A stretch of DNA of 64,000 nucleotides from Microvenator marinus. Its GTDB lineage: Bacteria; Myxococcota_A; Bradymonadia; Bradymonadales; Bradymonadaceae. The DNA is taken from positions 2,876,001 through 2,940,000 of the forward strand of contig NZ_CP042467.1 in NCBI RefSeq assembly GCF_007993755.1, in the 5' to 3' direction. Under the pieces are notes generated by a model. That model was given only the letters and a program-made list of their open reading frames with translations, was not told where the DNA came from and did no database searches. Numbering within the stretch: the first letter of the stretch is position 1; each line of letters opens with the position of its first letter. Positions 25,251 through 56,500 of the stretch are shown here, in pieces. Position numbers and translations under genes: made by a program.

Positions 25251-25287
25251 CTGTTTTGGACGCTAAGTCTTTTTGCGTAGTTCATCT

Positions 25288-25306
25288 GAGGAGGAGAGAC
25301 CTCCTC
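25288..25306 (+). promoter_or_regulatory. 5' UTR hairpin upstream of the small Cys-rich gene
   Basis: GAGGAGG, loop AGAGA, CCTCCTC forms a perfect seven-base-pair stem 18 bases before the start codon. Its 3' arm is complementary to a Shine-Dalgarno sequence and could also pair with the gene's own GGAG at 25316-25319, so it may control ribosome access. This is inferred from base pairing only. Confidence 0.45.
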
Positions 25307-25324
25307 TACAATAATGGAGTAACC

Positions 25325-29754: not shown

Positions 29755-30147
29755 TTAGTCGCCCTGATCGCCAGACGGGCCAGTGGAAGGTCCGGTTGGC
29801 CAATCTCCGATCTTCTCAACACAGATATTATCGAATCTGTTAGGTTGCCATGCGACCGATGCTTGGGCCTCGCTGAGTGCGGTTTGCTCGTCGGGCGTTA
29901 GTGGCTGGAGATCGCCGAGGGCTTCTCGGAGGGCGGACAAAGGTTGTCCGTCGAATTCGTCTGGGATTCCAAAGGGATCGAACTTGTCCAGGCAGGCGAG
30001 CGTGGGGTGCCTCAGATGCACGACCTCGTCGTAGACCTCAAACATTGTGTGTTCAAACCCCGAGAGCTACGGCGCCGGATATCCTTGAGCTCGAATCAAC
30101 CCGCCGATAACTAGTGGGTACAAAAAGGTAGGTGTTGTCTTTATCAT
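29755..30147 (-). pseudogene. Small exported protein gene interrupted by an in-frame TAG
   Basis: An ATG at 30147, five bases after GGAG and overlapping the end of the lipoprotein gene, opens a signal-like peptide (MIKTTPTFLYPLVIGGLIRA). Codon 27 is TAG (30067-30069), and the same frame then continues for 104 codons (FDPFGIPDEFDGQPL, LTPDEQTALSEAQASVAW) to 29755. Without the TAG this would be a normal 130-residue exported protein and the third gene of the operon. If read separately, the downstream part could start at the ATG at 30045. It is a broken gene or a sequencing error; readthrough is less likely. Confidence 0.55.
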
Positions 30148-42758: not shown

Positions 42759-44945
42759 ATGAATTCACCGCTGAAGACTCTAGGCCGGTACGAACTCCTG
42801 CATCCCATCGCACGCGGTGGTATGGGAGAGATCTATCTGGCACGGGCTCGAGGTGCGGGCGGCTTTGAGAAGACCATCATCATCAAGACGATGGTGGAGC
42901 ATCTCGCCGAAGAAGAGGAGTTCATCACGCGCTTTCTGGACGAGGCGCATATCGTGGTGCAGCTCGTTCACGGCAATATCGTCCCCGTCTTTGATATGGG
43001 TGAGGAAGACGGCACGTATTTCATCGCCATGGAGTATGTGCCAGGCCGCGATTTGCGCGAAGTGCTCAAACGCCTCAGCATGACTGGGGATGTGATGCCC
43101 GTGGACCTCGCGCTCTTTGTGGTGAGCGAGGTGGCCAAAGGGCTTGATTACGCGCATCGAAAGACGGATTCGGACGGCGAAAACTTAGGGATCGTACACC
43201 GCGATATCAGCCCCTCAAATATCGTGATTTCGTCGGATGGCGAGGTGAAGATCATCGATTTCGGCATTGCGCGTGCCGCTGGAAAGCTCGGGAAGACCGC
43301 ATCGGGGCGCATCCAGGGTAAGTTTTGCTACATGAGCCCGGAGCAGGCCGCAGGGCGCCCGCTCGACGCGCGCAGCGACGTATTCAGTGCCGGGGTCACG
43401 CTCTACGAGTTGATGACGGGGTTTCGGCCCTTTGAGGGGAGCTCGGACCTGGAGAGCCTGGAGCTCGTGCGGCTCTGTGAATTCGACCCGCCGAGCACCC
43501 TGAATCCCGCGATTCCGGAAGAGGTAGACTCGATCGTTCAAAAGGCGCTCTCCAAGAACACGGCTGAGCGATATCAGAGCGCCGAACAGCTGCAGGTGGA
43601 TATCCTTCAATATCTCTACGCCACGGGCAGCGCACCAACGAGCTCCGAGGTCGGAAAGTTCTTGGCAGGCTTGTTCCCGGAGGGTTTGGAGCGAAAGGAG
43701 CTCAAGGCTGCGCGCGGCTCGGGTTCTTCGCCGCGCAAAGGGAATCTAGACCAGGTGCTTGAAGAGGAGTTGGACCGACTGCTGGACAAGCCCGGGACAG
43801 ACCCCTTCTCAACCACGGCGGCATCGCCGGCAAAACGGCCGGCTCAGTCTTCGGAGACGGCGAGTCGGATCATCGACTCGAGTTCGATTTCAAAGCCGCT
43901 GACCTCGCGCACGCATCAGACAGGTCAAGGCGCTGCGGAGGCGCCCGCGAGTGGGCTGAACCGCATGGTCGCGGGTGGAAGCGTGTTCATTTTGCTTCTG
44001 GCGGCGGGCTTTTTCCTCTGGCCCCGACCTGCGTATGTTCAGATCGATAGTGAGCCTGAGGGCGCTAAGATTCTCATCAACGGCGCCGAGTCTATGGGCA
44101 GCCTCACGCCTGCGCGCCTTAAGTTAGAGCCCGGTGTTCACTCGATTACGATTGAAAAAGATGGGTTTCAGGCGCGGACCTTGAGGGTGGAGCTTGGGCG
44201 TGGTGAGGAGTTTGAGATCGGCGCGGATCGGGCAACTCTTGTGGAGATTAAGCGGCCTCGGAGTTTCGAGGTTAAGGCACCTGAAGGAGCCGTGATTCTT
44301 CGCGATCAGTCGTCTCTTGGCACACATCAGACCACGATCGAACTCAACCCAGGACAGGTCACGAATTTGCTGGCCCAGAAGGAGGGCTGTACGGGCTCGA
44401 ACTATGCGCTTTCCTACGAGCATTCATCGCCGCAAGTGGTTCTTCCGCTGAATTGCGAGCCCGCACAGACCGAGCCGGAGCCGGAGCCGGAGCCGAGCAA
44501 AGAGCGGCCTGCTCAACCCCAGGTGGTTACGGTAGTTTTTGATTCAACGCCGACGGGAGCCACGGTGGTGATTGACGGTGCCGAGGTCGGGCAGACACCC
44601 ATGCGCGCGCCCTACCCGACTCGCGAGGCGTTTGAAGTCAGGTTTGAACTAGATGGCTATGAGTCGGTGGTTCAGACTAGGCGGCCTGGCGTGCGGCGCG
44701 TGAGCGCGAAATTCGCGCAGGCAGATGAGGGTTGCCTGGACCTGAGCTTGATAAACCCGGCCATTGGTGAGGTTTCAATCGACTCTGGACCATTTGAGAA
44801 AGTCAATCGTGGGTTTAAGAAACGCCCTCTCAAAGCGGGGAAACACACGGTTCGAGCGAGGAACCCTGTGGCCCAACGCGACGATACCTTCGAGGTTGAA
44901 ATTGAGGCCTCGCCAAAATGTAAACTCCTCGTAATATGGGATTAG
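42759..44945 (+). CDS. Membrane Ser/Thr kinase with extracytoplasmic PEGA domains
   Basis: A 728-residue Hanks kinase. Catalytic domain: ARGGMGEIYLA (18-28), K43, HRDISPSN with D149, DFGIARA from D167, SPEQAAG. The HRDISPSN variant is common in Myxococcota kinases. A disordered linker leads to one transmembrane helix (about 404-420), then PEGA-type beta domains (VQIDSEPEGAKILINGAE near 427, and VVFDSTPTGATVVIDGAEVG near 590) joined by an EPEPEPEP linker. PEGA domains probably sense or bind the envelope. The Roadblock-domain gene follows immediately. Confidence 0.92.
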   Translation: MNSPLKTLGRYELLHPIARGGMGEIYLARARGAGGFEKTIIIKTMVEHLAEEEEFITRFLDEAHIVVQLVHGNIVPVFDMGEEDGTYFIAMEYVPGRDLREVLKRLSMTGDVMPVDLALFVVSEVAKGLDYAHRKTDSDGENLGIVHRDISPSNIVISSDGEVKIIDFGIARAAGKLGKTASGRIQGKFCYMSPEQAAGRPLDARSDVFSAGVTLYELMTGFRPFEGSSDLESLELVRLCEFDPPSTLNPAIPEEVDSIVQKALSKNTAERYQSAEQLQVDILQYLYATGSAPTSSEVGKFLAGLFPEGLERKELKAARGSGSSPRKGNLDQVLEEELDRLLDKPGTDPFSTTAASPAKRPAQSSETASRIIDSSSISKPLTSRTHQTGQGAAEAPASGLNRMVAGGSVFILLLAAGFFLWPRPAYVQIDSEPEGAKILINGAESMGSLTPARLKLEPGVHSITIEKDGFQARTLRVELGRGEEFEIGADRATLVEIKRPRSFEVKAPEGAVILRDQSSLGTHQTTIELNPGQVTNLLAQKEGCTGSNYALSYEHSSPQVVLPLNCEPAQTEPEPEPEPSKERPAQPQVVTVVFDSTPTGATVVIDGAEVGQTPMRAPYPTREAFEVRFELDGYESVVQTRRPGVRRVSAKFAQADEGCLDLSLINPAIGEVSIDSGPFEKVNRGFKKRPLKAGKHTVRARNPVAQRDDTFEVEIEASPKCKLLVIWD

Positions 44946-45009
44946 GCGCTTGCCAGAGGCCCGCCATGAGTTATATGAAACGGTTGCACAAACGTATCCC
45001 GGAGTATTC

Positions 45010-45366
45010 ATGTTTAAGCAGAAATTGACCCGTGTGGTGAATAACATCGACGGCGCGATCGGATGCATGCTGATAGGCTTTGATGGAATCGCCATCGACA
45101 GCGTGTTCCGGGAGGCGGAGGTGCCACAGTTGAGCGCCATTTCAGTTGAGCTCAGCAATATGCTGGACAAGTTTCGCCGGCTTCAGGTCTACGACGTGGG
45201 CGACGTAAACGAGGTCAGCATCACGACTGGAAATATCACCACTTTGGCCCGCGTCATCGCGGATGAATACTTGCTGGTTTTGGCCTTGGACAAGGATGCG
45301 GACGTGGGCCGCGGACAAACGATGCTTCGGCTCATTTCTCCCTTCGTCGAACGCGAAATGGTGTGA
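45010..45366 (+). CDS. Roadblock/LC7-domain protein (MglB-like)
   Basis: A 118-residue single-domain protein of the Roadblock/LC7 superfamily: VVNNIDGAIGCMLIGFDGIA, LSAISVELSNMLDKF, IADEYLLVLALDKDADVG. Members act as GAPs or scaffolds for small Ras-like GTPases, as MglB does for MglA in polarity control. No GTPase is encoded in the window. The ATG at 45010, with GGAG at 45001, is preferred to an upstream ATG at 44950. Position right after the PEGA kinase suggests co-expression. Confidence 0.8.
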   Translation: MFKQKLTRVVNNIDGAIGCMLIGFDGIAIDSVFREAEVPQLSAISVELSNMLDKFRRLQVYDVGDVNEVSITTGNITTLARVIADEYLLVLALDKDADVGRGQTMLRLISPFVEREMV

Positions 45367-45402
45367 TAGAGAAGCGCGCGTAATTTCCGCTAAGAGGACG
45401 AC

Positions 45403-45966
45403 ATGTATAGCACTTCAGATTTTCGTAAGAACCTCAAGATTGAAATTGACGGCGAGCCCTATGTGATTTTGGAAGCCGTCCACGTCAAGCCCGGCAAGGG
45501 CGTGGCGTTCGTAAAGACCAAGTACAAGAGCTTGATTTCGGGTCGCACCCTCGAGCAGAACTTCCGCTCGGGCGACAAGGTCAACGTGCCAAATCTCGAG
45601 GCACGCACCATGACCTATCTCTACAAAGACGGCGATATGTTCGTCTTTATGGACCAGAACAACTACGAGCAGCTTCAGCTTGAAGAGGGCGCCGTGGAAA
45701 CCGTACTGGACTATTTGAAGGATAACCTCGAGGTTGAGGTGTTGTTCTTCAACAACCGCGCGATCAACGTGGAGCCACCTGTATTTGTAGAGCTCTACGT
45801 GACTCAGACCGATCCTGGTGTCAAAGGGGACACGGCTCAGGGCGGCTCAAAACCGGCTACTTTGGAGACGGGCGCCGTGATCACGGTGCCGCTCTACCTC
45901 CAAGAAGGCGAGTTAATTAAAGTAGATACACGTACGGGATCGTATGTGGAGCGCGTCAACAAATAA
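45403..45966 (+). CDS. efp: Translation elongation factor P
   Basis: A 187-residue EF-P that relieves ribosome stalling at polyproline. All three beta-barrel domains are present: the N-terminal KOW-like MYSTSDFRKNLKIEIDGEPY, the modification loop KPGKGVAF with its conserved lysine, and the C-terminal GAVITVPLYLQEGELIKVDT. No epmA/epmB or earP gene lies nearby, so the state of the lysine is unknown. The start codon is well placed after AGAGG. Confidence 0.95.
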   Translation: MYSTSDFRKNLKIEIDGEPYVILEAVHVKPGKGVAFVKTKYKSLISGRTLEQNFRSGDKVNVPNLEARTMTYLYKDGDMFVFMDQNNYEQLQLEEGAVETVLDYLKDNLEVEVLFFNNRAINVEPPVFVELYVTQTDPGVKGDTAQGGSKPATLETGAVITVPLYLQEGELIKVDTRTGSYVERVNK

Positions 45967-45983
45967 CGCGCGCTGATGAGTGG

Positions 45984-46013
45984 TTGACGTTGTTCAACCG
46001 TGACCGTTATCAT
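45984..46013 (+). promoter_or_regulatory. Sigma-70-type promoter for the large TPR gene
   Basis: TTGACG and TATCAT, each matching consensus at five of six positions, are separated by 18 bases and lie about 50 bases before the start codon. Confidence 0.5.
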
Positions 46014-46061
46014 GTCGCACCTACACACGGTGCGTAGGGCATTTCGAAGAGGCTTAGGACC

Positions 46062-48596
46062 TTGGCTGTCAACCGCGACAAACTCTTGGATTCCGCGCAG
46101 AAGCACGTCCGTAAGGGGAGCTGGGACCGTGCGATTAAGGACTATCAGCAGATTCTTGAAGCTGAGCCTGATGATGTGCGTACTCGCCTGAAAGTGGCTG
46201 ACCTTTTGGTGAAGGTAAACCGCTACGAGGAGGCTCTAACTGAGTACCTCCAAGTGGCCTATCACTATGCCTCGGACGACATTTACGACAAGGCCGTAGC
46301 TGTCTACAAACAGGCACTTCGAATCGCGCCAAACGACCCGCGGCTCCATCGCGACTTGGGTGAGGCGTATTATCGCTACGGGCGTCTTAAAGACGCATTG
46401 CGTGCGTTCCATCAGGCGCAGAAGATCTTCCGTGAAAATAACGATGCGATCGCGCAACGAGACGTTCTTGAGCGCATGGTTGCTATCGATCCTGAAGACA
46501 TCGGCCTTCAGATTCAGATCGCCGAGCGCTACGAGAAGGACGGAGAGCGCGCCAATTCCCTGATGTATTTCAGGCGCGCGTCCGAGCACCTTTTGGAAGA
46601 GGGCCGGCTCGATGAGTACACTCAGGTGGCTGAGCGTATTGTGTTCCTTGAGCCTGCTGATTATCGGCTTCGAAAGCATATCGTGCGCCTTTACTTAGAT
46701 CGCGAGAACAACAAGCACGCGCTCAAGCACCTGCAGATTCTCTTCAAGGATATGCCGAACGATGTTGAGACGCTGGACATGTTGGGCCTTGCGTTCGGGC
46801 GCCTTGGCCAGAATGACAAGGCGGTCTTGGTCTACCTTGAGGCCGCGAAGGCACAGCGCCGACAGGGCCAAGAGCAGCTCGCACACGAGACCTTCCGCAA
46901 GATTCTGAAGCTCGATCCAAACCATCCAGAAGCCCTTCAGGTGGTGGGTCGTCCGAAACAAGATTCGTCGCCGCAGCTGGCGGATACCGGCAATCTTGGC
47001 CAGAACGCACCTCCGACGCAGGACGCGCTCGATGGCGTAGAATTCTTGGATGATGACGAGTGGGAAGACAACACCATGCAAGGTGAGACTTTCCAGGAAG
47101 AGGACACCAAGAAGGGTGTGGATTTCTTTGAGTTTGCCGCGCATGAATTGGGCGACACGGGCTCAGATATTCTCCACCGAATCGACGACCGCCCAGGCAC
47201 GGGCATTGGTCAGCGTCGCACCGAGGCCGTGTCAGATATCGCGGATGTACAGGACTTGGTGGAAGTTCATATCGAGGCCACTGAGGATATCGGCGGGAAC
47301 GACGTTCGCCAGATCATTACTGAGTCCGAAGTTTTCTTGAAGTATCGGCTCTTTGATCGCGCGGACGAGGTCTTGACCAAAGCCGTTCGAATGGCACCGG
47401 ATAGTGTGGGAGTACGCGAGCAATTGCACCGCCTCCGAGCGATGCAAGGAGAGATGGAGGCGGCGGCCAACGAGCTCTTCCAGCTCGCCCGGATTACCCG
47501 CACGACGCCTTCGCGCGCGGCTGACTATTTGCGCCGCGCCCGAGAGTTCGTGTCGGAAGCCGTGGTTCACCAACATGCGACCCATTTGGGCATCGCTCTG
47601 ACGGGTGAGCAACCGGTTCGGGTTGAGGAGCTGAGTCCGGACTTCATCGACGAAGTCAGCGAAGGTATCGAGGAAGTGTCCGAGGGCTTTGAGTACATGC
47701 CCGCGGGAGATACTTCCGTGGAATTCCTCTCTCCGGACGATGACGACGAAGTCGACACGGATGAGGCGTTGTCTGGAAACTCGGCCGTGGAAGACTCGGA
47801 AGAGATTATCTACACGCTCGATGACTTGGATGCTGAGGATATCCTTGAAGAAATGGACGATATGGCCGACGAACTCAGCATTGAGAATGCGGACGAGTTT
47901 GATATCGGTGATGTAGAGAATATGGACTTTGATGAAGCCCAACTTGGTGCCATCGAGTCTTCTGAAGTGGATGACCCTTTCGAGTTCGCGCTCTCGGGTG
48001 CGGATGCGGACGCGATGTTCGACCAGCTCTTCTCAGAGGCCACGGCGGTGGCATCGAAGGCCGTGCCTAAGAAGGTAGCCCCTAAGGACATAGGCGATTT
48101 GAGAGACGTGGATCTTCTGCTCGACCAGGGCATGGTAAGCGAGGCCGAGGATGCATTGGAGAAGTTCAGCGAGAACTCACCGAATCATCCTGGGGCCCCG
48201 GCACGATTGGCTCGAATCCGTGAGCTCAAGTCTTCGAACTCCAATCCGTTTGGTGCCAAGAGCCTGTCGGGCAAGTTCAATCCTGATTATTCGCAGCTCT
48301 CGGTGGCGCGTCTTGGTGCGCTTGAGCCGGAGAGTATGAACACGAATCTGGAGCTTGGGATCTCCTACCTGGACATGGGCATGTGGGATGATGCGATCGA
48401 GGAGTTCCGTCAGGCGCTCGACGATCCTCAAGCCGCTCCGGCTGCAATGCTGCACATGGCGACGTGTGAGCTTAGACGCGGTGATGCGGCGGCATCCGAG
48501 AACTTGCTCAAGATGTTGCTCACGCGCACAGATGTTCCAAACGAGATCGAAAACAAGGCCAATGAGGCTTTGGCGGCCATTGCGCGCCAACCGTAG
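46062..48596 (+). CDS. Large acidic TPR protein
   Basis: An 844-residue cytoplasmic protein. Residues 1-300 hold consecutive TPRs (WDRAIKDYQQILEAEPDD, YDKAVAVYKQALRIAPND, LKDALRAFHQAQKIF). The middle, about 320-680, is strongly acidic with DDEWED and FLSPDDDDEVDTDEA. Two more TPRs come before the end (MWDDAIEEFRQALDDP). The start is TTG with TTAGGA just upstream. Such proteins are scaffolds; the partner is unknown. It is expressed from its own promoter downstream of efp. Confidence 0.85.
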   Translation: MAVNRDKLLDSAQKHVRKGSWDRAIKDYQQILEAEPDDVRTRLKVADLLVKVNRYEEALTEYLQVAYHYASDDIYDKAVAVYKQALRIAPNDPRLHRDLGEAYYRYGRLKDALRAFHQAQKIFRENNDAIAQRDVLERMVAIDPEDIGLQIQIAERYEKDGERANSLMYFRRASEHLLEEGRLDEYTQVAERIVFLEPADYRLRKHIVRLYLDRENNKHALKHLQILFKDMPNDVETLDMLGLAFGRLGQNDKAVLVYLEAAKAQRRQGQEQLAHETFRKILKLDPNHPEALQVVGRPKQDSSPQLADTGNLGQNAPPTQDALDGVEFLDDDEWEDNTMQGETFQEEDTKKGVDFFEFAAHELGDTGSDILHRIDDRPGTGIGQRRTEAVSDIADVQDLVEVHIEATEDIGGNDVRQIITESEVFLKYRLFDRADEVLTKAVRMAPDSVGVREQLHRLRAMQGEMEAAANELFQLARITRTTPSRAADYLRRAREFVSEAVVHQHATHLGIALTGEQPVRVEELSPDFIDEVSEGIEEVSEGFEYMPAGDTSVEFLSPDDDDEVDTDEALSGNSAVEDSEEIIYTLDDLDAEDILEEMDDMADELSIENADEFDIGDVENMDFDEAQLGAIESSEVDDPFEFALSGADADAMFDQLFSEATAVASKAVPKKVAPKDIGDLRDVDLLLDQGMVSEAEDALEKFSENSPNHPGAPARLARIRELKSSNSNPFGAKSLSGKFNPDYSQLSVARLGALEPESMNTNLELGISYLDMGMWDDAIEEFRQALDDPQAAPAAMLHMATCELRRGDAAASENLLKMLLTRTDVPNEIENKANEALAAIARQP

Positions 48597-48616
48597 AGGA
48601 GGGCTCTGTCCTCCTC
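48596..48616 (+). terminator. Hairpin with GCTCTGT loop at the end of the TPR gene
   Basis: GAGGAGG, loop GCTCTGT, CCTCCTC begins at the last base of the stop codon. There is no U-run. The loop is identical to that of the hairpins at 48708 and 50984 read on the other strand. Confidence 0.45.
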
Positions 48617-48689
48617 AAATGAACATCGCTGAATTCATTTACATTCAAATTTTGTTGAAGAACTCACGAAATGATGAGGGAGTTTGTTG

Positions 48690-50864
48690 ATGTTAAATCT
48701 TGCGACACACGCGGACAGAGCCCGCGTGTACATTTACACAATTCTATTGCTTTTCCTCACAAGTTGCTCAGCCCAACCCAAACCCTCGGACGAGGTACCC
48801 CAGATGTCTCAAGTCGAAAGCGCCCCGAAAGCAAAACAAGTCCCCCATGAACTCGAGGCACACGGCGAAGTACGCGTGGATAACTACTACTGGTTAAACC
48901 AGAAGGAGAATCCCGAGGTCATCGCCTATCTAGAAGCTGAGAACACGTGGGCAGAATCCAAAATGGCGCACACCAAGGAGCTCCAAGAGTCGCTCTTTGA
49001 AGAGATGGTCTCGCGAATCAAGGAGGACGATGAGTCGCCTCCGTATTTCCACGGTGGGTATTGGTACTACTCAAGAACCATCAAAGACAAGAATTACGAG
49101 GTTTATTGCCGCAAAGAGAAGACTCTCGAAGCCTCGGAGCAAGTTCTCTTGGACGGCAACCAAATGGCGGAGGGCAAGGAGTATTTTGCGCTCGGAGCCA
49201 TGGAACCAAGCCCGGACCACCGATGGCTCGCCTACTCCACCGACTACCTTGGAAACGAGCGCTACACCCTGCGTGTTCGCGACTTGCAGACCGGCAAGGA
49301 CACTGACACAGAAGTCCCAGATACTTATTATTCGCTCGCGTGGGCGAACGATAACAAGACTTTGTTTTACACCCGTGTGGACGAAGCCAACCGCCCGTAT
49401 CAGGTCTGGAAACACGTGCTCGGCACCGACGCGTCTGCGGATGCGCTGATTTTTGAGGAGGACGATGATGCGTTCTTCCTCGGTGTTCAGCGCACACGAA
49501 GCGGAAAGTACCTGGTCATTAACCTGCAGAGCAAGGTGACGACCGAGACCTGGCTCTTGGATGCCAACGCGCCGGAAGGGGAGTTCAAGCTCTTTTCGCC
49601 GCGCAAGCAGTCGGTGGAGTATTATGTGGCTCATCACGAGGACTCGTTCTACGTGATGACCAATGATGGTGCGACGAACTTCAAGTTGATGAAGACCTCG
49701 GAGAACGCGACTGAGGCGGCCAACTGGACGGAAGTCATCGCGCACAATCCTGAGGTTACACTCTCCGGCATCGACACGTTCAAGAACTTCCTCGTGGTGA
49801 CGGAGCGTCGCTCGGGCGTCAACACCCTGCGGGTCCGAAATTTCGCGAGTGGCGAAGAGAAGTACGTCCCGTTTCCCGAGGCGTCGTATACCGTTCGCAC
49901 TACGAACAACGAGGAGTACGGGACAACGACACTTCGATACGCTTATGCCTCTTTGACCACGCCTCGAAGCATCTTTGACTACGACATGACGACCGGTGAA
50001 ACCAAGCTCGTCAAAGAAACTGAGGTCCCGAACTACGACCGCACCGAGTTTGAGTCCCAACGAATCTACGCCACGGCAGCCGATGGCACCAAGGTTCCTA
50101 TCTCGATCGTGTACAAGAAGGGCGCGCTCGATAACGGCCCGGCACCGCTATTCCTCACGGGGTACGGCTCCTACGGCATCAGCTACGACCCGGGCTTCAG
50201 GTCGAGCCGCGTGGCTCTCTTGGAGCGCGGAATCGTGTTCGGCATCGCACATATCCGCGGCGGGGGCGACATGGGACGGATGTGGTACGAGGACGGGAAA
50301 TTCGACAAGAAGATGAACACGTTTACGGATTTCATCTCAGCCTCAGAACACCTTATCAATCAGGGCATCACACGCACAGATATCCTGGCGATTGAAGGCG
50401 GAAGTGCCGGCGGACTCCTGATGGGCGCGGTCTTGAACATGCGCCCGGACCTTTTCGGAGCAGCGATTGCGTCGGTTCCTTTTGTGGACGTGCTGACCAC
50501 GATTTTGGACCCATCCTTGCCGCTCACAGTTATCGAGTGGGAGGAGTGGGGAAATCCGGCCGAGAAGAAGTATTACGACTACATCAAGTCGTATTCGCCT
50601 TACGATAACGTCAAGGCACAGGACTACCCGGCCATGCTCGTCACCGCCGGTCTGAACGATCCGCGCGTCTCGTATTGGGAGCCCGCGAAATGGGTCGCGA
50701 AGCTTCGTACGCTGAAGACGGATTCAAACGTCTTGATGCTCAAGACCAATATGGGTGCGGGGCATGGCGGGGCATCCGGGCGCTATGATTATCTCAAAGA
50801 GCTCGCGTTCGAGTACGCCTTTGTGATCAATCAGATTACTCAAAGAACCTTTGATGAGCGTTGA
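48690..50864 (+). CDS. Oligopeptidase B-type S9 peptidase, lipoprotein
   Basis: A 724-residue serine peptidase resembling PtrB, which cleaves after Lys and Arg in short peptides. Features include VDNYYWLNQKENPEVIAYLE, IRGGGDMGRMWYEDGKF, nucleophile in EGGSAGGLL, Asp in NDPRVSYWEPAKW and His in GAGHGG. The N-terminus is a lipoprotein signal (LLLFLTSC), unusual for PtrB, so it is probably envelope-located. The n-region contains the peptide HADRARVY encoded by a palindromic repeat. A GTG inside that repeat is an alternative start. Confidence 0.88.
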   Translation: MLNLATHADRARVYIYTILLLFLTSCSAQPKPSDEVPQMSQVESAPKAKQVPHELEAHGEVRVDNYYWLNQKENPEVIAYLEAENTWAESKMAHTKELQESLFEEMVSRIKEDDESPPYFHGGYWYYSRTIKDKNYEVYCRKEKTLEASEQVLLDGNQMAEGKEYFALGAMEPSPDHRWLAYSTDYLGNERYTLRVRDLQTGKDTDTEVPDTYYSLAWANDNKTLFYTRVDEANRPYQVWKHVLGTDASADALIFEEDDDAFFLGVQRTRSGKYLVINLQSKVTTETWLLDANAPEGEFKLFSPRKQSVEYYVAHHEDSFYVMTNDGATNFKLMKTSENATEAANWTEVIAHNPEVTLSGIDTFKNFLVVTERRSGVNTLRVRNFASGEEKYVPFPEASYTVRTTNNEEYGTTTLRYAYASLTTPRSIFDYDMTTGETKLVKETEVPNYDRTEFESQRIYATAADGTKVPISIVYKKGALDNGPAPLFLTGYGSYGISYDPGFRSSRVALLERGIVFGIAHIRGGGDMGRMWYEDGKFDKKMNTFTDFISASEHLINQGITRTDILAIEGGSAGGLLMGAVLNMRPDLFGAAIASVPFVDVLTTILDPSLPLTVIEWEEWGNPAEKKYYDYIKSYSPYDNVKAQDYPAMLVTAGLNDPRVSYWEPAKWVAKLRTLKTDSNVLMLKTNMGAGHGGASGRYDYLKELAFEYAFVINQITQRTFDER
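48708..48732 (+). repeat. Palindromic repeat, copy 1, in the oligopeptidase B signal region
   Basis: A 25-base sequence with arms CACGCGG and CCGCGTG around ACAGAGC recurs exactly at 50984-51008. Both copies encode HADRARVY and precede a lipoprotein hydrophobic segment. Confidence 0.85.
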
Positions 50865-50956
50865 ACCAAGCAGAGCCCTGCGGTAGAGTCTGAGGCAACT
50901 AACTTGGTTGGACATTGGGTTCATCGCGGAATCTACGATTATGGGTGGGTTTGGAA

Positions 50957-51703
50957 ATGGATTACCTTAAACGACGACCATCTCACGCGGACAGAGCCCG
51001 CGTGTACAAATCTTTACTACTCGCCTCACTCCTCGGAATTTCATGTGCTGAGGAGGCAGCAGAGCCCATCGTGTTTGAAGCCGGCCGGACCTGCACCGCG
51101 CCAGAAGGCATGGGTCGGCCCACCACCATCAAAGGCGTGCTCGACCTTATCGACGCCTTGCCTCGCCCGGTAACCGTTGAGTGCTTCATCGACTCGCTCG
51201 ACCGCCCACTGGCGATGGTTGGCTCGACCAGCGTGTTCAGCGCTCAGCCAGCGTTTAGCGACGAGGCGCCGCGCATCTTTGCGGTCAACGACACTTTGAT
51301 TATCTCGTGGGTGCCTGATGGCGACGGCGGAAAGCTCTTGGAGTTTGCCGAGGAACGCCCGTTCTCGCGCTCGGTGAAGGCGGAAGTGGTGATGCCTGTT
51401 GAAGGTGAGTTTAAGTACTCGGACGCCTTCGACCATCTGATCCAAGACGACCAGGCCACGTCGACGTGCGGCATCTGTCATGGTCAGGAAACTCGGGCGA
51501 TGGATATCGACTACGGGGTGGCCTTTGAGTCGCTTGCGCTTCGGCCCCGCGACCTGGATCAGGTCAACGTGACGCGAATGCGTGAGCTCAAGGAAGCATG
51601 CGACCCAGCTCAAACGCCGGAGCGTTGCAAGATTTGGAATGCGATGTTTCGAGGGCCCGTGGAAGACACGGATTTTGGCCGGTCCTTGCCAACTTTCTTT
51701 TGA
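50957..51703 (+). CDS. Lipoprotein with one CxxCH motif
   Basis: A 248-residue predicted lipoprotein (LLASLLGISC lipobox) of unknown function. STCGICHGQE near residue 172 is a possible haem-c site, followed by RAMDIDYGVAFESLALRPRD; CDPAQTPERC lies near the end. The n-region includes the palindrome-encoded HADRARVY. The ATG at 50957 gives a basic n-region; the GTG at 51002 within the repeat would give a shorter, cleaner signal (VYKSLLLASLLGISC). It converges on dacB with two bases between the stops. Confidence 0.7.
   Translation: MDYLKRRPSHADRARVYKSLLLASLLGISCAEEAAEPIVFEAGRTCTAPEGMGRPTTIKGVLDLIDALPRPVTVECFIDSLDRPLAMVGSTSVFSAQPAFSDEAPRIFAVNDTLIISWVPDGDGGKLLEFAEERPFSRSVKAEVVMPVEGEFKYSDAFDHLIQDDQATSTCGICHGQETRAMDIDYGVAFESLALRPRDLDQVNVTRMRELKEACDPAQTPERCKIWNAMFRGPVEDTDFGRSLPTFF
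50984..51008 (+). repeat. Palindromic repeat, copy 2, in the CxxCH lipoprotein signal region
   Basis: Identical over 25 bases to 48708-48732, in the same orientation and reading frame (HADRARVY). Confidence 0.85.
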
Positions 51704-51705
51704 GC

Positions 51706-53109
51706 TTAGAGCCCGACAAAGAGGGAGACGATGGCGTCCTGTTCGTCCCGAAGCGTCCAGGCGCGAACCGGCGTCTTGTTGAAGATCACAGTGTAAGCCA
51801 ATCTTCGCCCAGACTTCGTGGTGATGTAGCCCGCCAAGGCCGTGACCTCGTTGAGGGTTCCGGTCTTTCCACGAACACGGGTATTGGTGTTGGAGCCCTC
51901 GAGTCGCGACTTCAAGGTACCGTCGCGCCCCGCGATAGGAAGACTCATCTTGAATTCCGGACCAAAAGCGTGCGTGTCCATATGAACCAGGATCTGGTTG
52001 ATTTGGCGGGCGGAGAAGAGGTTTCCATCATAGAGGCCACTGCCGTTGAACGCGGTCCACCCAGGGGTGAGACCGACTTCAGTCAAAAACGCGTCGATCT
52101 TTGCGCGGGCGTCCTCGGTACTTGCTTTGTCCGAGCCCGAAATCTGGCGGAAGATCATCTCGGCCATGAAGTTGTTCGACCACTTATTCATGGACGCGAG
52201 GTGCTGCCAGAGTGGTGCTGATTCGTAGAGCACGAGCGTGGTCGTGCCCTCTGGACGAGCCCCGACGCCATACTCTCCGCTTACCTCGATGCCTGTGCTC
52301 TTGAGCGCATGCATGAACGCCGACGCCGCAAAGAGTGAGGGATTGTCGATACGTTTCCGAACTACACCAGGACCGGTCGCTGATTCGCCGATGACGCCAC
52401 GGATTCGGATGAGGGTGCGACCATCTTTTTCGGTTGCCACGCCTGAGACGGAGACGCGTTTTCCCTTTTGGGTTCGCACGTCGTTGATGATCTCCACATA
52501 GTCGTTGGGCGGCACCATGCGCACGTTTGCGGGCTTTCCGGCTTCAGACGGGGTGATGTAGACGCTAACCGAGTTGTACGAAACCGAAACGGCACCGATG
52601 GGCGCACGGTAGGCTGCGTCCTCGTTCTTCTGGTCGAATGCAGGGGGAATGAAGCCCGGCGCGAAGCTCAGGTCATCGACCATGATCTTGCCTTCGATCT
52701 TGGTGATTCCCTGTTCACGTAGATCGATGGCCCATGAGACGAGGTTGTCCCAATGGAGGAAAGGGTCACCGTCGCTCTTGAGCCAGAGGTCGCCCTTGAT
52801 CGCGCCTCCTTGACGAGGTCCATCGTACGAAACGCGGCTGAAGATCGTGTGCTCGGGCCCAAGGATCGAGAGCGCTGCGGCGGCCGTGACGAGCTTTGTG
52901 TTGCTCGCCGGGTTCATGAGGACGTCGGCATCCCTCTCAATGAGCACCTCTTTCGAGTCCAGGTCTTGCACCATGATACCCACTGTGGACTGGGCGAGCT
53001 CGGGGTTCTTGAGGAGTTTGTCGAGCTCGGCGTTGATGGCAGCGGGTGAAGTTTGGGCCGCGAGGGGTCCGGCCAGAAAGAGAAATACGACTAGAAGTAG
53101 CTTGTTCAT
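51706..53109 (-). CDS. dacB: D-alanyl-D-alanine carboxypeptidase/endopeptidase (PBP4-type, S13)
   Basis: A 467-residue class C penicillin-binding protein that trims peptidoglycan stem peptides or cuts cross-links. It has a signal peptide (to about residue 19, ending GPLAAQ), the nucleophile motif SNTK (S69-K72) in MNPASNTKLVTAAAAL, SNN in KWSNNFMAEM and KTGT in RGKTGTLNEV. Length is normal for PBP4. It is divergent from a gene of unknown function, with a palindrome between them. Confidence 0.92.
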   Translation of the reverse strand: MNKLLLVVFLFLAGPLAAQTSPAAINAELDKLLKNPELAQSTVGIMVQDLDSKEVLIERDADVLMNPASNTKLVTAAAALSILGPEHTIFSRVSYDGPRQGGAIKGDLWLKSDGDPFLHWDNLVSWAIDLREQGITKIEGKIMVDDLSFAPGFIPPAFDQKNEDAAYRAPIGAVSVSYNSVSVYITPSEAGKPANVRMVPPNDYVEIINDVRTQKGKRVSVSGVATEKDGRTLIRIRGVIGESATGPGVVRKRIDNPSLFAASAFMHALKSTGIEVSGEYGVGARPEGTTTLVLYESAPLWQHLASMNKWSNNFMAEMIFRQISGSDKASTEDARAKIDAFLTEVGLTPGWTAFNGSGLYDGNLFSARQINQILVHMDTHAFGPEFKMSLPIAGRDGTLKSRLEGSNTNTRVRGKTGTLNEVTALAGYITTKSGRRLAYTVIFNKTPVRAWTLRDEQDAIVSLFVGL

Positions 53110-53159
53110 GCCCCATGTTTACTGGCATTGGCAAAGTTGTACAAGGCAGAGCCTCGCCT

Positions 53160-53176
53160 GCGTCACCAGGTGACGC
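53160..53176. promoter_or_regulatory. Palindromic operator candidate between dacB and the divergent gene
   Basis: GCGTCACCAGGTGACGC is a perfect 17-base palindrome around a central A, with a further half-site GTGACGC at 53190-53196. It lies in the 188-base divergent intergenic region. No cognate regulator is identified. Confidence 0.4.
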
Positions 53177-53297
53177 GAGCCGTCGTGGCGTGACGCAAAA
53201 CCGCCTCCAAAACCCTCGCAAGCCCAGTAAATACGCGGCGCAAGTGCTGGCTCGCTTCTTGTACCTACATGTGCTCCCACGTTGCGAGAGGTCCGTG

Positions 53298-54290
53298 ATG
53301 AGCCGTTTTGACACCACCCAATTTGCTGATTCCTGCAGAGTCGCTACATGCTCGGCGCTTGCCTCGATCAGTCTTTTGGAGACGATCGTTTCGGTAAAGC
53401 GGGAGCTTTCGCCCGAGTTGATGGGCTGGGGAGAGCTTCGCCGAGACATCGTCATGCTACCGGAAGTGGTATCAGGTGTTCATGTCGCGATCTCGGACTT
53501 TCGCAGCGTGGTTTCTAGGGCGGGCGAGCCGGACTATGCGCAGGCAAAGGTGGGGCTGCGAAACCTGCATCGGGAGTTGATCAGCACCGCAAAATGGTTT
53601 GATGACCTTGCCGAGAGGCTTCAGACGGTCTCGTTTCACCTTCGTTCGGACACGAGCTTTGGACCGGATTCAGCTGAGATGCTCTGGCGCAGCGCACGAC
53701 TTGCGGAGCTCTTGATGCCCGACCCACTGACGCGTACTCAGTTCTTGCGCGACGGGATGTGCGCCACGCTGCACGTTTTCGATATGGGGTTCATGAACGT
53801 TTGGGTCGGGAGTTTTGAAGGCCCACTTCGAGATATGCGGCTCTTGCTTTTGAAGCAGGCTCTCAATGGGTTGCACGTGACCTGGACGCGCACTTCTCCC
53901 ATCAAGGCAGCGCGCGAGGAGGCGCTACTTTGGCCACTTCGGTCGCCTGCGGCTCATTTCCTGGATCTCTGTGCGGCATCGGTGACGAGTCTTCGGCGGC
54001 AGATTTCGGTGCTCAAGGGCCATTTGCGCAGGCATCTTTTGAACTATGAAAATCAGCTGAGCGTCAAGCGGCTCGACGAGGCCAAACGCACGTTATCAAT
54101 CGCGATAGACCCACGGCTCGAAGAGGAACTCGGCCAGATCGTGCTTGCGATTGCCGGGCTTGGGCGCGCCATCCATATTGAGGAAGAGTGGCGCGATGTT
54201 GAGATCTCGGACGCCTATATCGACCCACCCGAGGCCCTGAGTAGCACGACCGTGATGAGCGCCGCGCCGATCATTGCTCCATGGTGGTGA
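53298..54290 (+). CDS. Helical protein of unknown function
   Basis: A 330-residue cytoplasmic protein not recognised as any family. It is almost entirely alpha-helical by composition, with amphipathic stretches such as YAQAKVGLRNLHRELISTAK, and ends in a Pro-Trp-Trp tail. GAGAGG six bases before the ATG at 53298 fixes the start; the frame extends upstream through the intergenic palindrome without coding character. Its divergent placement from dacB could mean shared control. Confidence 0.7.
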   Translation: MSRFDTTQFADSCRVATCSALASISLLETIVSVKRELSPELMGWGELRRDIVMLPEVVSGVHVAISDFRSVVSRAGEPDYAQAKVGLRNLHRELISTAKWFDDLAERLQTVSFHLRSDTSFGPDSAEMLWRSARLAELLMPDPLTRTQFLRDGMCATLHVFDMGFMNVWVGSFEGPLRDMRLLLLKQALNGLHVTWTRTSPIKAAREEALLWPLRSPAAHFLDLCAASVTSLRRQISVLKGHLRRHLLNYENQLSVKRLDEAKRTLSIAIDPRLEEELGQIVLAIAGLGRAIHIEEEWRDVEISDAYIDPPEALSSTTVMSAAPIIAPWW

Positions 54291-54322
54291 CAAAAAAGGC
54301 TAGAAGAAGGCACTGACATAGA

Positions 54323-54351
54323 TTGCACCTGAGCGAGTCGAAGTGTATGGT
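54323..54351 (+). promoter_or_regulatory. Promoter candidate for sucB
   Basis: TTGCAC and TATGGT are spaced by 17 bases, about 48 bases before the sucB start. The match to consensus is moderate. Confidence 0.3.
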
Positions 54352-54398
54352 CCGCCGTGTGGAGAGCGTTTTTATCCATTAATTGATCAGGTGTTCTC

Positions 54399-55604
54399 AT
54401 GAGTGTCACAGTTGCGGTTCCTGCCCTTGGAGAATCGGTCACTGAAGCCATCATCGCTGAATGGTTGAAGAATGTTGGGGAATTCATCAAGCAAGACGAG
54501 GTTCTCGTTGAGCTTGAGACGGATAAGATTACGGTGTCGGTGCCATCGCCGGTCAGCGGAATCGTCAAGGCGTTAAAGTACGAGCCAGACGCCACGGTCA
54601 ACGTGGGTGACGTTTTGGCTGAGATCGAGCCCGCCGAAGAAGGCAGCCAGCCAGAGGCGAAGGCTGAAGCTCCGAAAGCCGAAGAAGCCAAGAGCGCGGA
54701 GCCCAAAGCTGAGGCTCCGAAGTCGAATGGCGAGGCCCCACATTTGAGCCCTGCAGTGGCGCGAATTGTGGAGGAGCGAGGCATCGACGCGAGCAAGGTC
54801 GAAGGTACTGGTCCTGGCGGGCGAATTCTTAAGGGCGATGTACTCGATCATAAACCTGCGCAAGCGAAGCCTACACCGGCCAAAGCCCCTGATGTGGGTG
54901 GTGATGAGCCGACCGAGCGCGTTAAGATGTCGAAGCTTCGCCAGACGGTGGCTCGACGCCTTGTTGAAGCGCAACAAACGGCGGCGATGCTCACGACCTT
55001 CAATGAAGTCGACATGACGAACGTGATGGAGCTTCGCAAGAAGTACCAGGATTCGTTCGTCAAGAAGAACGGCTTTAAGCTCGGGTTCATGTCCTTCTTT
55101 GTGAAGGCCGCTGTGGAGGCTCTGAAAGAGTATCCTGCGGTTAATGCTGAGATCGACGGTGACGAGATCGTCTTCAAGAATTTCTACCATGTCGGCGTTG
55201 CCGTAGGCGGTGGCAAAGGTCTTGTGGTGCCGGTGGTACGTCACGCGGACCGTTTGAGTTTTGCGGAGGTTGAGTCTGAGATTTCACGACTTGCGAAGCT
55301 CGCGATGGACAATCGCCTGAGCCTCGAGGACCTTCAGGGCGGCACGTTCACAATTTCGAACGGCGGGATTTATGGATCCATGCTATCGACCCCGATTCTG
55401 AACCCACCACAGGTGGGAATTTTGGGGATGCACAACATTGTTGAGCGTCCGGTTGCCATCAATGGAAAGGTCGAAATCCGGCCAATCATGTACCTGGCAT
55501 TGAGTTACGACCACCGAATCATCGACGGTAAAGAAGCCGTTTCGTTCCTGGTTCGGTTGAAGGAATGTATTGAGAACCCCGAGCGAATCCTGCTCGAGGT
55601 GTGA
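54399..55604 (+). CDS. sucB: Dihydrolipoyllysine succinyltransferase (2-oxoglutarate dehydrogenase E2)
   Basis: A 401-residue E2 core of the TCA-cycle 2-oxoglutarate dehydrogenase. The lipoyl domain (1-78) carries the lipoylated lysine in [12 protein letters not shown]. An Ala/Glu/Lys/Pro linker leads to the E3-binding domain ([20 protein letters not shown]), then the acyltransferase domain ending with the catalytic [24 protein letters not shown] at the N-terminus favours succinyl over acetyl transfer. E1 is not in the window; E3 (lpdA) is 30 kb away. Confidence 0.93.
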
Positions 55605-55629
55605 CAAAGAGTTGAATTTCGTGTACTCT
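55601..55629 (+). promoter_or_regulatory. Promoter of rpsU, overlapping the sucB stop
   Basis: GTGACA and TACTCT with a 17-base spacer fit a sigma-70 promoter. The -35 box overlaps the sucB stop codon, and the -10 box lies in a hairpin-forming sequence. Confidence 0.4.
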
Positions 55630-55640
55630 AGAGAGTGCAC
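55621..55640 (+). promoter_or_regulatory. Hairpin/palindrome just upstream of the rpsU ribosome site
   Basis: GTGTACTCTAGAGAGTGCAC folds into an eight-base-pair stem with a four-base loop, four bases before GGAGG. It could be a DNA operator over the -10 box or a leader RNA structure. Confidence 0.4.
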
Positions 55641-55654
55641 CACGGAGGTATGCA

Positions 55655-55897
55655 TTGGCAGAACGAAGAAAATCAAAACAAGACGAACTTGGACCCGTAG
55701 AAGTGCCTGTGATCGACAATAACGTCGGCCGCGCAATCAACCAGCTCAAGAGAGTTATCGGACGCGAAGGCCTTAATCGTGAGCTCAAGAGGCGACGATT
55801 CTACGAGAAGCCGAGCGTAGCAAAGCGAAGAAAGTCAATTGAGGCCGAACGTCGTCGTCGTAAGGACGAGCGCCGAAGCCGTCAAAGCGACTTCTAA
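55655..55897 (+). CDS. rpsU: 30S ribosomal protein S21
   Basis: An 80-residue basic protein with the S21 features VIDNNVGRAINQLKRVIGRE, a FYEKPSVAKRRKS block and an Arg/Lys-rich C-terminus that binds 16S rRNA near the anti-Shine-Dalgarno end. The start is TTG at 55655, six bases after GGAGG; an ATG at 55650 is only one base from that site and reads just 16 codons in another frame. It is slightly longer than the common 70-residue form. A terminator follows. Confidence 0.9.
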   Translation: MAERRKSKQDELGPVEVPVIDNNVGRAINQLKRVIGREGLNRELKRRRFYEKPSVAKRRKSIEAERRRRKDERRSRQSDF

Positions 55898-55911
55898 GAA
55901 GATAAGAAATT

Positions 55912-55931
55912 CGGGGAGCTTCCCCGTTTTT
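55912..55931 (+). terminator. Rho-independent terminator after rpsU
   Basis: The palindromic CGGGGAGCTTCCCCG is followed directly by TTTTTC, 15 bases after the rpsU stop. Confidence 0.85.
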
Positions 55932-55981
55932 CTGGATAATATTAAAAACCGTCCAGTCGGTTTTATTTCAGGTCTGAGGCC

Positions 55982-56500
55982 ATGAAACGCAGGACGTTCT
56001 TACGCTGGGGGATCGCATGTGGTGCCATCGCATTGGGTGGTTTGGCACTCTCATGGCCCATCATCGGCGATTTCCCACGTATGTGGGATGAAGCACCGGG
56101 GGCAGGCTTTAAGGTGCTGACCGACGAAGAAGCCTTGATCACCCGTGCGCTTGCAGGCGGCATCTTCCCTGGTGATCAAACCATGCCTTCAGGGGAGAAT
56201 CTGGGGCTAGACCATTTCTTCGACGAATATCTGGCGGTCATCCCACGACAAACAGCCACGCTCTTGCGGATCTTGATCCGAAGCATCGACCGCATGGCTA
56301 TGTACGATTTTGGTGGCAGGCTCCACACCCGCAATATCCTTGAGCGCGTCGAGGTTGTGGAGGCGTGGGACCAGAGCTCGTCCGGCATCAGGCGCACCAT
56401 CTTCCAATCTATCAAAGTCCTCCTTGCGATGGGCTATTTTGAACATCCCGATGTGCTAAGAGCGGCCGGCATCGAGTATGAGTGCGGAGGCATGGGATGA
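55982..56500 (+). CDS. Gluconate 2-dehydrogenase subunit 3-like small Tat protein
   Basis: A 172-residue protein with a Tat-like signal (MKRRTFLRWGIACGAIALGG). The mature part resembles the small subunit of membrane gluconate dehydrogenases (ITRALAGGIFPGD, LDHFFDEYLAVIPR, FFEHPDV-like FEHPDVLRAAG). Such subunits escort the GMC flavoprotein through the Tat pathway and stabilise it. Its stop overlaps the GMC gene start by four bases (ATGA), consistent with a two-subunit complex. No cytochrome subunit is encoded here. Confidence 0.75.
   Translation: MKRRTFLRWGIACGAIALGGLALSWPIIGDFPRMWDEAPGAGFKVLTDEEALITRALAGGIFPGDQTMPSGENLGLDHFFDEYLAVIPRQTATLLRILIRSIDRMAMYDFGGRLHTRNILERVEVVEAWDQSSSGIRRTIFQSIKVLLAMGYFEHPDVLRAAGIEYECGGMG

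Follow-up and report, generated by a model that had tools for sequence, protein, structure and literature searches.

A genome-wide family of REP-like palindromes with covarying stems and no detectable Y1 transposase in a bradymonad-like bacterium

The closest described systems to the hairpins reported here are the repetitive extragenic palindromic (REP) sequences, for which the portions of the literature drawn on in this study document alternative complementary stems, G-T pairs, dimers and heterodimers with the GT ends outside and a location near stop codons, as well as tags that supply a TAG codon, in-frame copies, species-specific families and families lacking a dedicated transposase (Di Nocera et al., 2013, PMC3733652). 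According to the same account, REPtrons may be lost by deletion. Nunvar and colleagues took the preserved palindromes of REPs to suggest complementary mutations (PMC2817692), and the REP transposase has been described as recognising the folded single-stranded DNA form of REPs, with Group 3 TnpA-REP proteins recognising the loop, stem and tag of that folded strand (PMC8266576). Here, we analysed a stretch of 64,000 nucleotides of the Microvenator marinus genome (contig NZ_CP042467.1, positions 2,876,001 to 2,940,000; hereafter, the window), in which an earlier reading of the sequence alone (the sequence-only reading) had picked out three hairpins that carry the same 11-mer, GGGCTCTGTCC, on different but still paired stems, and had suggested that an RNA or DNA structure is under selection. 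We think it probable that these hairpins belong to one family of REP-like palindromes spread over the genome, copied in the form of a folded single strand of DNA and now either orphaned or moved by some other enzyme.

The genome, a single contig of 5,847,748 bases (97.5% complete), contains 42 copies of GGGCTCTGTCC against two of the reversed control, and the 11-mer is nearly always the tip of a hairpin. The genome-wide excess on which the sequence-only reading had made its proposal depend was therefore found. A first covariance model, built from an alignment of all the exact copies but one (41 of 42, without that at 5356909), gave 117 matches at E ≤ 10 and 98 at E ≤ 0.01, with scores for 150 of 2,108 candidates. 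From 90 of those 98 matches, with eight excluded because of indels, an overlap or a 3′ stem that was broken, we built a second model, which gave 105 matches at E ≤ 0.01 with 150 of 1,554 candidates scored, so that the family has about 105 members, both model counts being approximate and possibly low. Copies are scattered rather than arranged in arrays, unlike integron attC sites, which have R′/R″ boxes and occur in cassette arrays with an integrase gene. Their spread over 500-kb bins is uneven, with 68 of 109 copies lying between 2.5 and 4.5 Mb and one between 4.5 and 5.0 Mb.

The stems of these copies covary. In the 90-row set, the covariation score was 0.400, compared with 0.101 after shuffling (none of 500 shuffles reached 0.400) and at most 0.118 in slid controls, and eight of nine stem pairs showed changes on both sides; the outermost pair was CG in 29 copies, AU in 21, GC in 16 and UA in 14. 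Among 41 copies picked by the 11-mer alone, a set that does not select for stems, the score was 0.296 against 0.077 when shuffled. These figures are inflated by related copies; however, origin of the covariation in a single sub-family is impossible, because 83 copies contain 23 stem combinations, of which the commonest are fully paired. When mutual information was calculated with no structure given on 91 of the 98 rows, all of them model matches, the top three of 2,485 column pairs (4-24, 6-22 and 8-20, with 1.33, 1.00 and 0.97 bits) were all stem pairs, and the next pair had 0.45 bits. Since covariation far exceeds both shuffled and slid controls, the folded single strand matters. Selection for structure, as proposed from the sequence alone, is supported, although none of these results requires a function for the RNA in the host.

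The repeat unit spans about 36–40 bp. It opens with GT(A/C) at the 5′ end, continues with a stem of 9 bp in which a G·T close to the loop is conserved, and closes with (A/G)GATGRRC, so that what the listed copies share beyond the loop is GT(A/C), stem, the core GGGCTCTGTCC and this tail. Borders and tag were analysed in 83 of the 90 best matches. The 5′ border is sharp: information jumps at the G of GT, the base before it being G in only one of 83, and fades past about position 36. The tag reads GTAC in 28 copies, GTCT in 13, GTCA in 13, GTAG in 10, GTAA in seven, GTCG in five and other sequences in seven (by its first three bases, GTA in 45, GTC in 32 and GTG in four), and its fourth base is a paired member of the stem. 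On the GGGCTCTGTCC strand, GGGC pairs with GUCC around a UCU triloop, with one G-U wobble that is retained in 81 of 90 copies, which makes the core slightly larger than the loop and closing pairs originally described. The strand of each copy can be identified, because the opposite strand would carry A-C at the G-U position.

Positions relative to genes were judged with our own rough hexamer-based gene caller, by which 93% of the examined sequence is coding. Of 97 copies, 70 fall between genes and 27 within called genes, in several cases right at the start. In 55 of the 70 intergenic copies, the outer (GT) end lies no more than 25 bp from a called gene boundary (31 of 32 stop-side and 24 of 38 start-side copies), compared with 14.9 on average and 28 at most in 2,000 random placements, in which 63 copies in mapped gaps were re-placed within the same gaps. 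Some repeats supply the stop codon, and probably others the start codon, of an adjoining gene. The genes next to start-side copies are unrelated, as judged by eye from their translations; enrichment of lipoproteins among them was considered and set aside as unconvincing on a crude motif test (7/36 against 19/150).

Copies also form dimers, nearly always of one polarity. Among the 109 copies there are 24 neighbour pairs no more than 400 bp apart, 22 with the GT ends outside, none with them inside and two in tandem; most copies have no recognisable partner. Dimer spacers measure 20–172 bp and are AT-rich (41% GC against 55% in all the sequence examined). Captured DNA as their source was rejected, since 19 joined spacers used as a query against the genome matched only themselves, except for one small palindrome. 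The four convergent gaps that hold a dimer measure 121–178 bp, of which only 5–25 bp lie outside the dimer, whereas the median for element-free convergent gaps is 6 bp (n = 32, counting only gaps of 0 bp or more); these sizes fit joint entry of hairpins and spacer into a tiny gap. In the stretches of this genome that were examined, element-free convergent genes end almost back to back.

Target-site duplication is otherwise at about the level of chance, a 7-bp flanking repeat being found at one of the 22 dimers. That dimer (4126343-4126554) is flanked by the direct repeat TGACCAC, and the spacer of the dimer 4126343/4126514, at 4126376-4126513, contains a palindrome with GCGGTACGAAACG, a member of a second, smaller palindromic repeat family, which is found in five other places: 1528178, 3612408, 5386861 (both strands), 3285953 and 4802621. 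Complementarity between tag and flank of the kind known from IS608 gave no clear signal. An autonomous element with these ends was also sought and rejected: inspection by eye of two long GT-outside intervals, on which Pfam was not run, revealed no transposase.

As far as searched, the family is essentially restricted to one species. In a further 25 genomes from the order the first model found one match. The second, under stricter filters, also found one, in 376 other genomes of the phylum, a scan in which only 17 candidates were scored per genome and weak copies may escape. The exact pattern was absent from a collection of 84,980 species (which may omit the source genome) and from viral contigs, and among the matches listed for a literature search with both spellings of the 11-mer, titles mostly concerned human papillomavirus (HPV) or other human or animal work. 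By elongation factor P, the nearest named relatives include Lujinxingia vulgaris (Bradymonadales), at 70%, a placement from one protein. Y1 transposases (PF01797) are present in 20 of the 25 relatives from the order. In three relatives, the Y1 transposase loci are flanked by translated tandem-like repeats, which suggests that they have REP clusters of their own.

Within the window (Table 1), an unfiltered model scan found four clear members, the next score having an E-value of about 1. The 11-mer does occur where the sequence-only reading had placed it, at 48601-48611 (+), 48713-48723 (−) and 50989-50999 (−), and the outer stems that it gave, GAGGAGG/CCTCCTC and CACGCGG/CCGCGTG, are right; all three hairpins fold well on the GGGCTCTGTCC strand (z −2.97 to −3.95). 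The fourth, decayed member had escaped that reading. By contrast, the CAGAGCC words near 50872 and 53146, likened there to the hairpins, are unrelated to the family: they gave no model match even at E 10 with filters off, and CAGAGCC shows no significant enrichment (17 occurrences where 11.25 are expected, a count reached in 7 of 100 shuffles). A weak match at 29982-30026 (+; E 0.99) has the tail CAGATGCACG and a differing loop and is perhaps a decayed or different-loop relative.

Table 1 Members of the hairpin family and neighbouring genes in the window
Feature	Positions	Strand	Description
Hairpin A	48593..48618 (conserved stretch 48589-48629)	+	GT + stem GAGGA/TCCTC + GGGCTCTGTCC core; 46.2 bits, E 1.4e-12
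Spacer of A-B dimer	48619..48705	no strand	Both GT ends outside
Hairpin B	48706..48731 (conserved stretch 48695-48735)	−	Stem CACGC/GCGTG; 43.3 bits, E 1.2e-11
Hairpin C	50982..51007 (conserved stretch 50971-51011)	−	Stem CACGC/GCGTG; 51.1 bits, E 3.6e-14
Fourth, decayed member	25275..25313	−	Stem GAGGA/TCCTC, loop with 2-base deletion; 26.6 bits, E 3.7e-6
TPR-repeat protein gene	46062..48596	+	3′ end in hairpin A
Prolyl oligopeptidase (Peptidase_S9) lipoprotein gene	48690..50864	+	Hairpin B at 5′ end
Predicted lipoprotein gene (VYKSLLLASLLGISC...)	51002..51703	+	No Pfam match; start within hairpin C

Each of the three hairpins meets a gene. The TAG stop codon (48594-48596) of the TPR-repeat gene is part of the GTAG of hairpin A. 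On the forward strand, hairpin B is either read in frame as ADRARVY or is the source of a GTG start at 48726, the alternative to the ATG at 48690; orthologues of the prolyl oligopeptidase in relatives start near the signal peptide, which fits the GTG inside hairpin B, so most residues of the hairpin may go untranslated. Hairpin C overlaps the GTG at 51002, called as the start of the next gene; no partner hairpin was found on the inner side of this hairpin. Positions 48630-48694 of the A-B spacer have no second match in the genome.

Taken together, we suggest that these are short non-autonomous repeats that would be recognised and copied as folded single-stranded DNA. The unit recognised would be a hairpin of about 26 nt with its apical G-T and short conserved loop, GT(A/C) before it and the conserved tail after it. 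The stem would be free to vary while it stays paired, giving rise to sub-families with swapped stems; recognition of loop, stem and tag by a protein like TnpA-REP would account for a tip that stays fixed while the stems are free. Pairs with the GT ends outside, which resemble REPIN doublets, appear to enter short intergenic gaps as a unit, and it may be for this reason that stop and start codons adjoin their outer ends or are even supplied by them. A REP-associated Y1 (HUH) transposase would be expected to move such repeats. As none can be detected here and most relatives possess one, the family was most likely orphaned when its transposase was lost, or else another enzyme moves it.

Several results weigh against this interpretation. 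Chief among them, as evidence against recent replication of doublets, are unrelated spacers and random pairing of arms. From one dimer to the next, spacers show no homology (28 pairs at E < 1, with 20 after shuffling), and when joined they find only themselves in the genome, apart from the palindrome already mentioned; arms combine at random with respect to stem type (the same stem in two of 22 dimers, with 9% expected), and repeated arm combinations show no excess (6 against 4.7). The reverse would be expected of a doublet that had replicated recently. An old population, in which selection or decay has acted differently on hairpins and spacers, would reconcile these observations. In addition, divergent gaps are barely enlarged (median 217 against 183 bp), no empty site was found in another genome, and the window locus shows no conservation of gene order. 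No Y1 transposase (PF01797) was found in the genome at E ≤ 0.001 or at E ≤ 10, nor did a profile of the relatives' RAYT-like proteins find one, in a search without a positive control. Finally, in a polyketide synthase (PKS)-like gene (993479-1002631), hairpins lie in frame in the linkers between successive modules resembling acyl carrier proteins (ACPs). That copies are tolerated there in itself speaks for the REP-like reading, but here it is single hairpins, not the dimer, that seem to have been lost. One linker has kept the spacer while both hairpins (about 30 and 33 bp) are missing and the frame is intact; because traces of both persist in the other three linkers, loss is likelier than independent gain, which suggests that single hairpins can vanish cleanly.

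Other explanations were weighed against the same body of evidence. The hairpins might serve the host as RNA punctuation, forming structures at the 3′ or 5′ ends of mRNAs whose GGGCUCYGUCC tip is recognised by an RNA-binding protein or RNase that protects or processes transcripts. Strong covariation, the conserved loop, the G-U pair so often kept and the closeness of nearly all stop-side copies to the stop codon (31 of 32 within 25 bp) would all suit such a role, but we consider it unlikely, given that start-side hairpins are antisense to the downstream gene, so that the transcript has the strand without the G-U, that the family is absent from relatives, that copies occur inside coding sequence, such as the PKS-like linker, and that start-side neighbour genes are unrelated. 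Nor is there an Rfam family to which they belong: ten loci and window positions 44000-56000 gave no match, and a known Rfam RNA was rejected on this ground. We are slightly more doubtful still that the family is active today, moved or maintained by a non-Y1 enzyme that recognises the G-T-tipped single-strand hairpin and sets its GT end against gene boundaries, in which case stop and start codons would partly be mobile DNA and the host would use polar hairpins to mark gene edges.

Intrinsic transcription termination, bidirectional where genes converge, is brought to mind by GC-rich hairpins just past stop codons and by pairs in convergent gaps. We nevertheless rejected it as very improbable on the missing T-run (six or more T in the ten bases after the stem occur in 0/109 copies on the hairpin strand and 3/109 on the other) and on a terminator scan that lists none at hairpins A, B or C; many copies, moreover, lie at starts or within genes. 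Palindromes just 5′ of start codons could likewise be operators for a DNA-binding regulator with palindromic half-sites, a reading to which we give hardly any credence: the half-sites covary, with all four Watson-Crick combinations at the outermost pair, unlike a fixed double-stranded site, and covariation led us to reject a duplex operator, copies being found at stops and inside genes too. As for chance or composition, the window alone is only mildly enriched (five matches to GGGCTCTGTCC with at most one mismatch against 1.53 expected, which is weak statistically), but the genome-wide count of 42 against two rules out such an artefact and, with the covariation controls, leaves it practically no probability.

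The REP-like family favoured here offers a clear natural example of stems that covary inside a single genome, from a bradymonad-like deltaproteobacterial lineage, and a REP-like population without a findable transposase while most relatives have one. With it, one can test what becomes of a REP population once the transposase is gone, and whether such hairpins can be handled by another enzyme.

How, then, does the family compare with known systems? It has the general features of REPs, being a dispersed palindrome of 20–40 bp, mostly intergenic and near 3′ ends, with complementary stem sub-families. The passages on GTAG-tagged REPs in Di Nocera et al. (2013, PMC3733652) describe much the same: a 20–40 bp palindrome with a conserved terminal tag, complementary stem sub-families and G-T pairs in the stem, dimers and heterodimers with GT outside ('HH'), proximity to the 3′ ends of genes, a tag that is often the TAG stop, some copies in open reading frames or at N-termini, and some families confined to a single species. 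Membership of the GTAG superfamily rests on an unpaired terminal GTAG (or GYAG, GYRG, GTRG, GTMG or GTGG) and a cognate RAYT (Y1 transposase) in the genome. Here, in contrast, the tag is GT(A/C) plus a stem base (GTAG in 10 of 83), base 4 is paired and no Y1 transposase was found; because of these tag and transposase results, we file the family as REP-like and not as a member of that superfamily. The spacers of GT-outside pairs are also unrelated, whereas conserved HH spacers are the rule of thumb in that paper.

CGTC-tagged REPs (PMC3733652) provide a parallel as a REP-like group without a dedicated transposase, although their tag is CGTC and not GT(A/C). With REPINs, as portrayed in part of Bertels and Rainey (2011, PMC3116915), the family shares, among those copies that have a recognisable partner, inverted doublets with conserved outer ends and a less conserved spacer, and in convergent gaps the dimer likewise seems to have arrived as a unit; it differs in spacers of 20–172 bp that are not recognisably related, in random arms and in having no RAYT detected. 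Lastly, the ends of IS200/IS605 elements and the substrates of TnpA-REP (PMC8266576, in the parts used here) differ in that no Y1 transposase gene was found in this genome, and recognition here is something we infer; they are alike in that strand-specific recognition of a folded hairpin by way of its loop or a stem irregularity, as described there, would explain both the apical G-T and the conserved loop.

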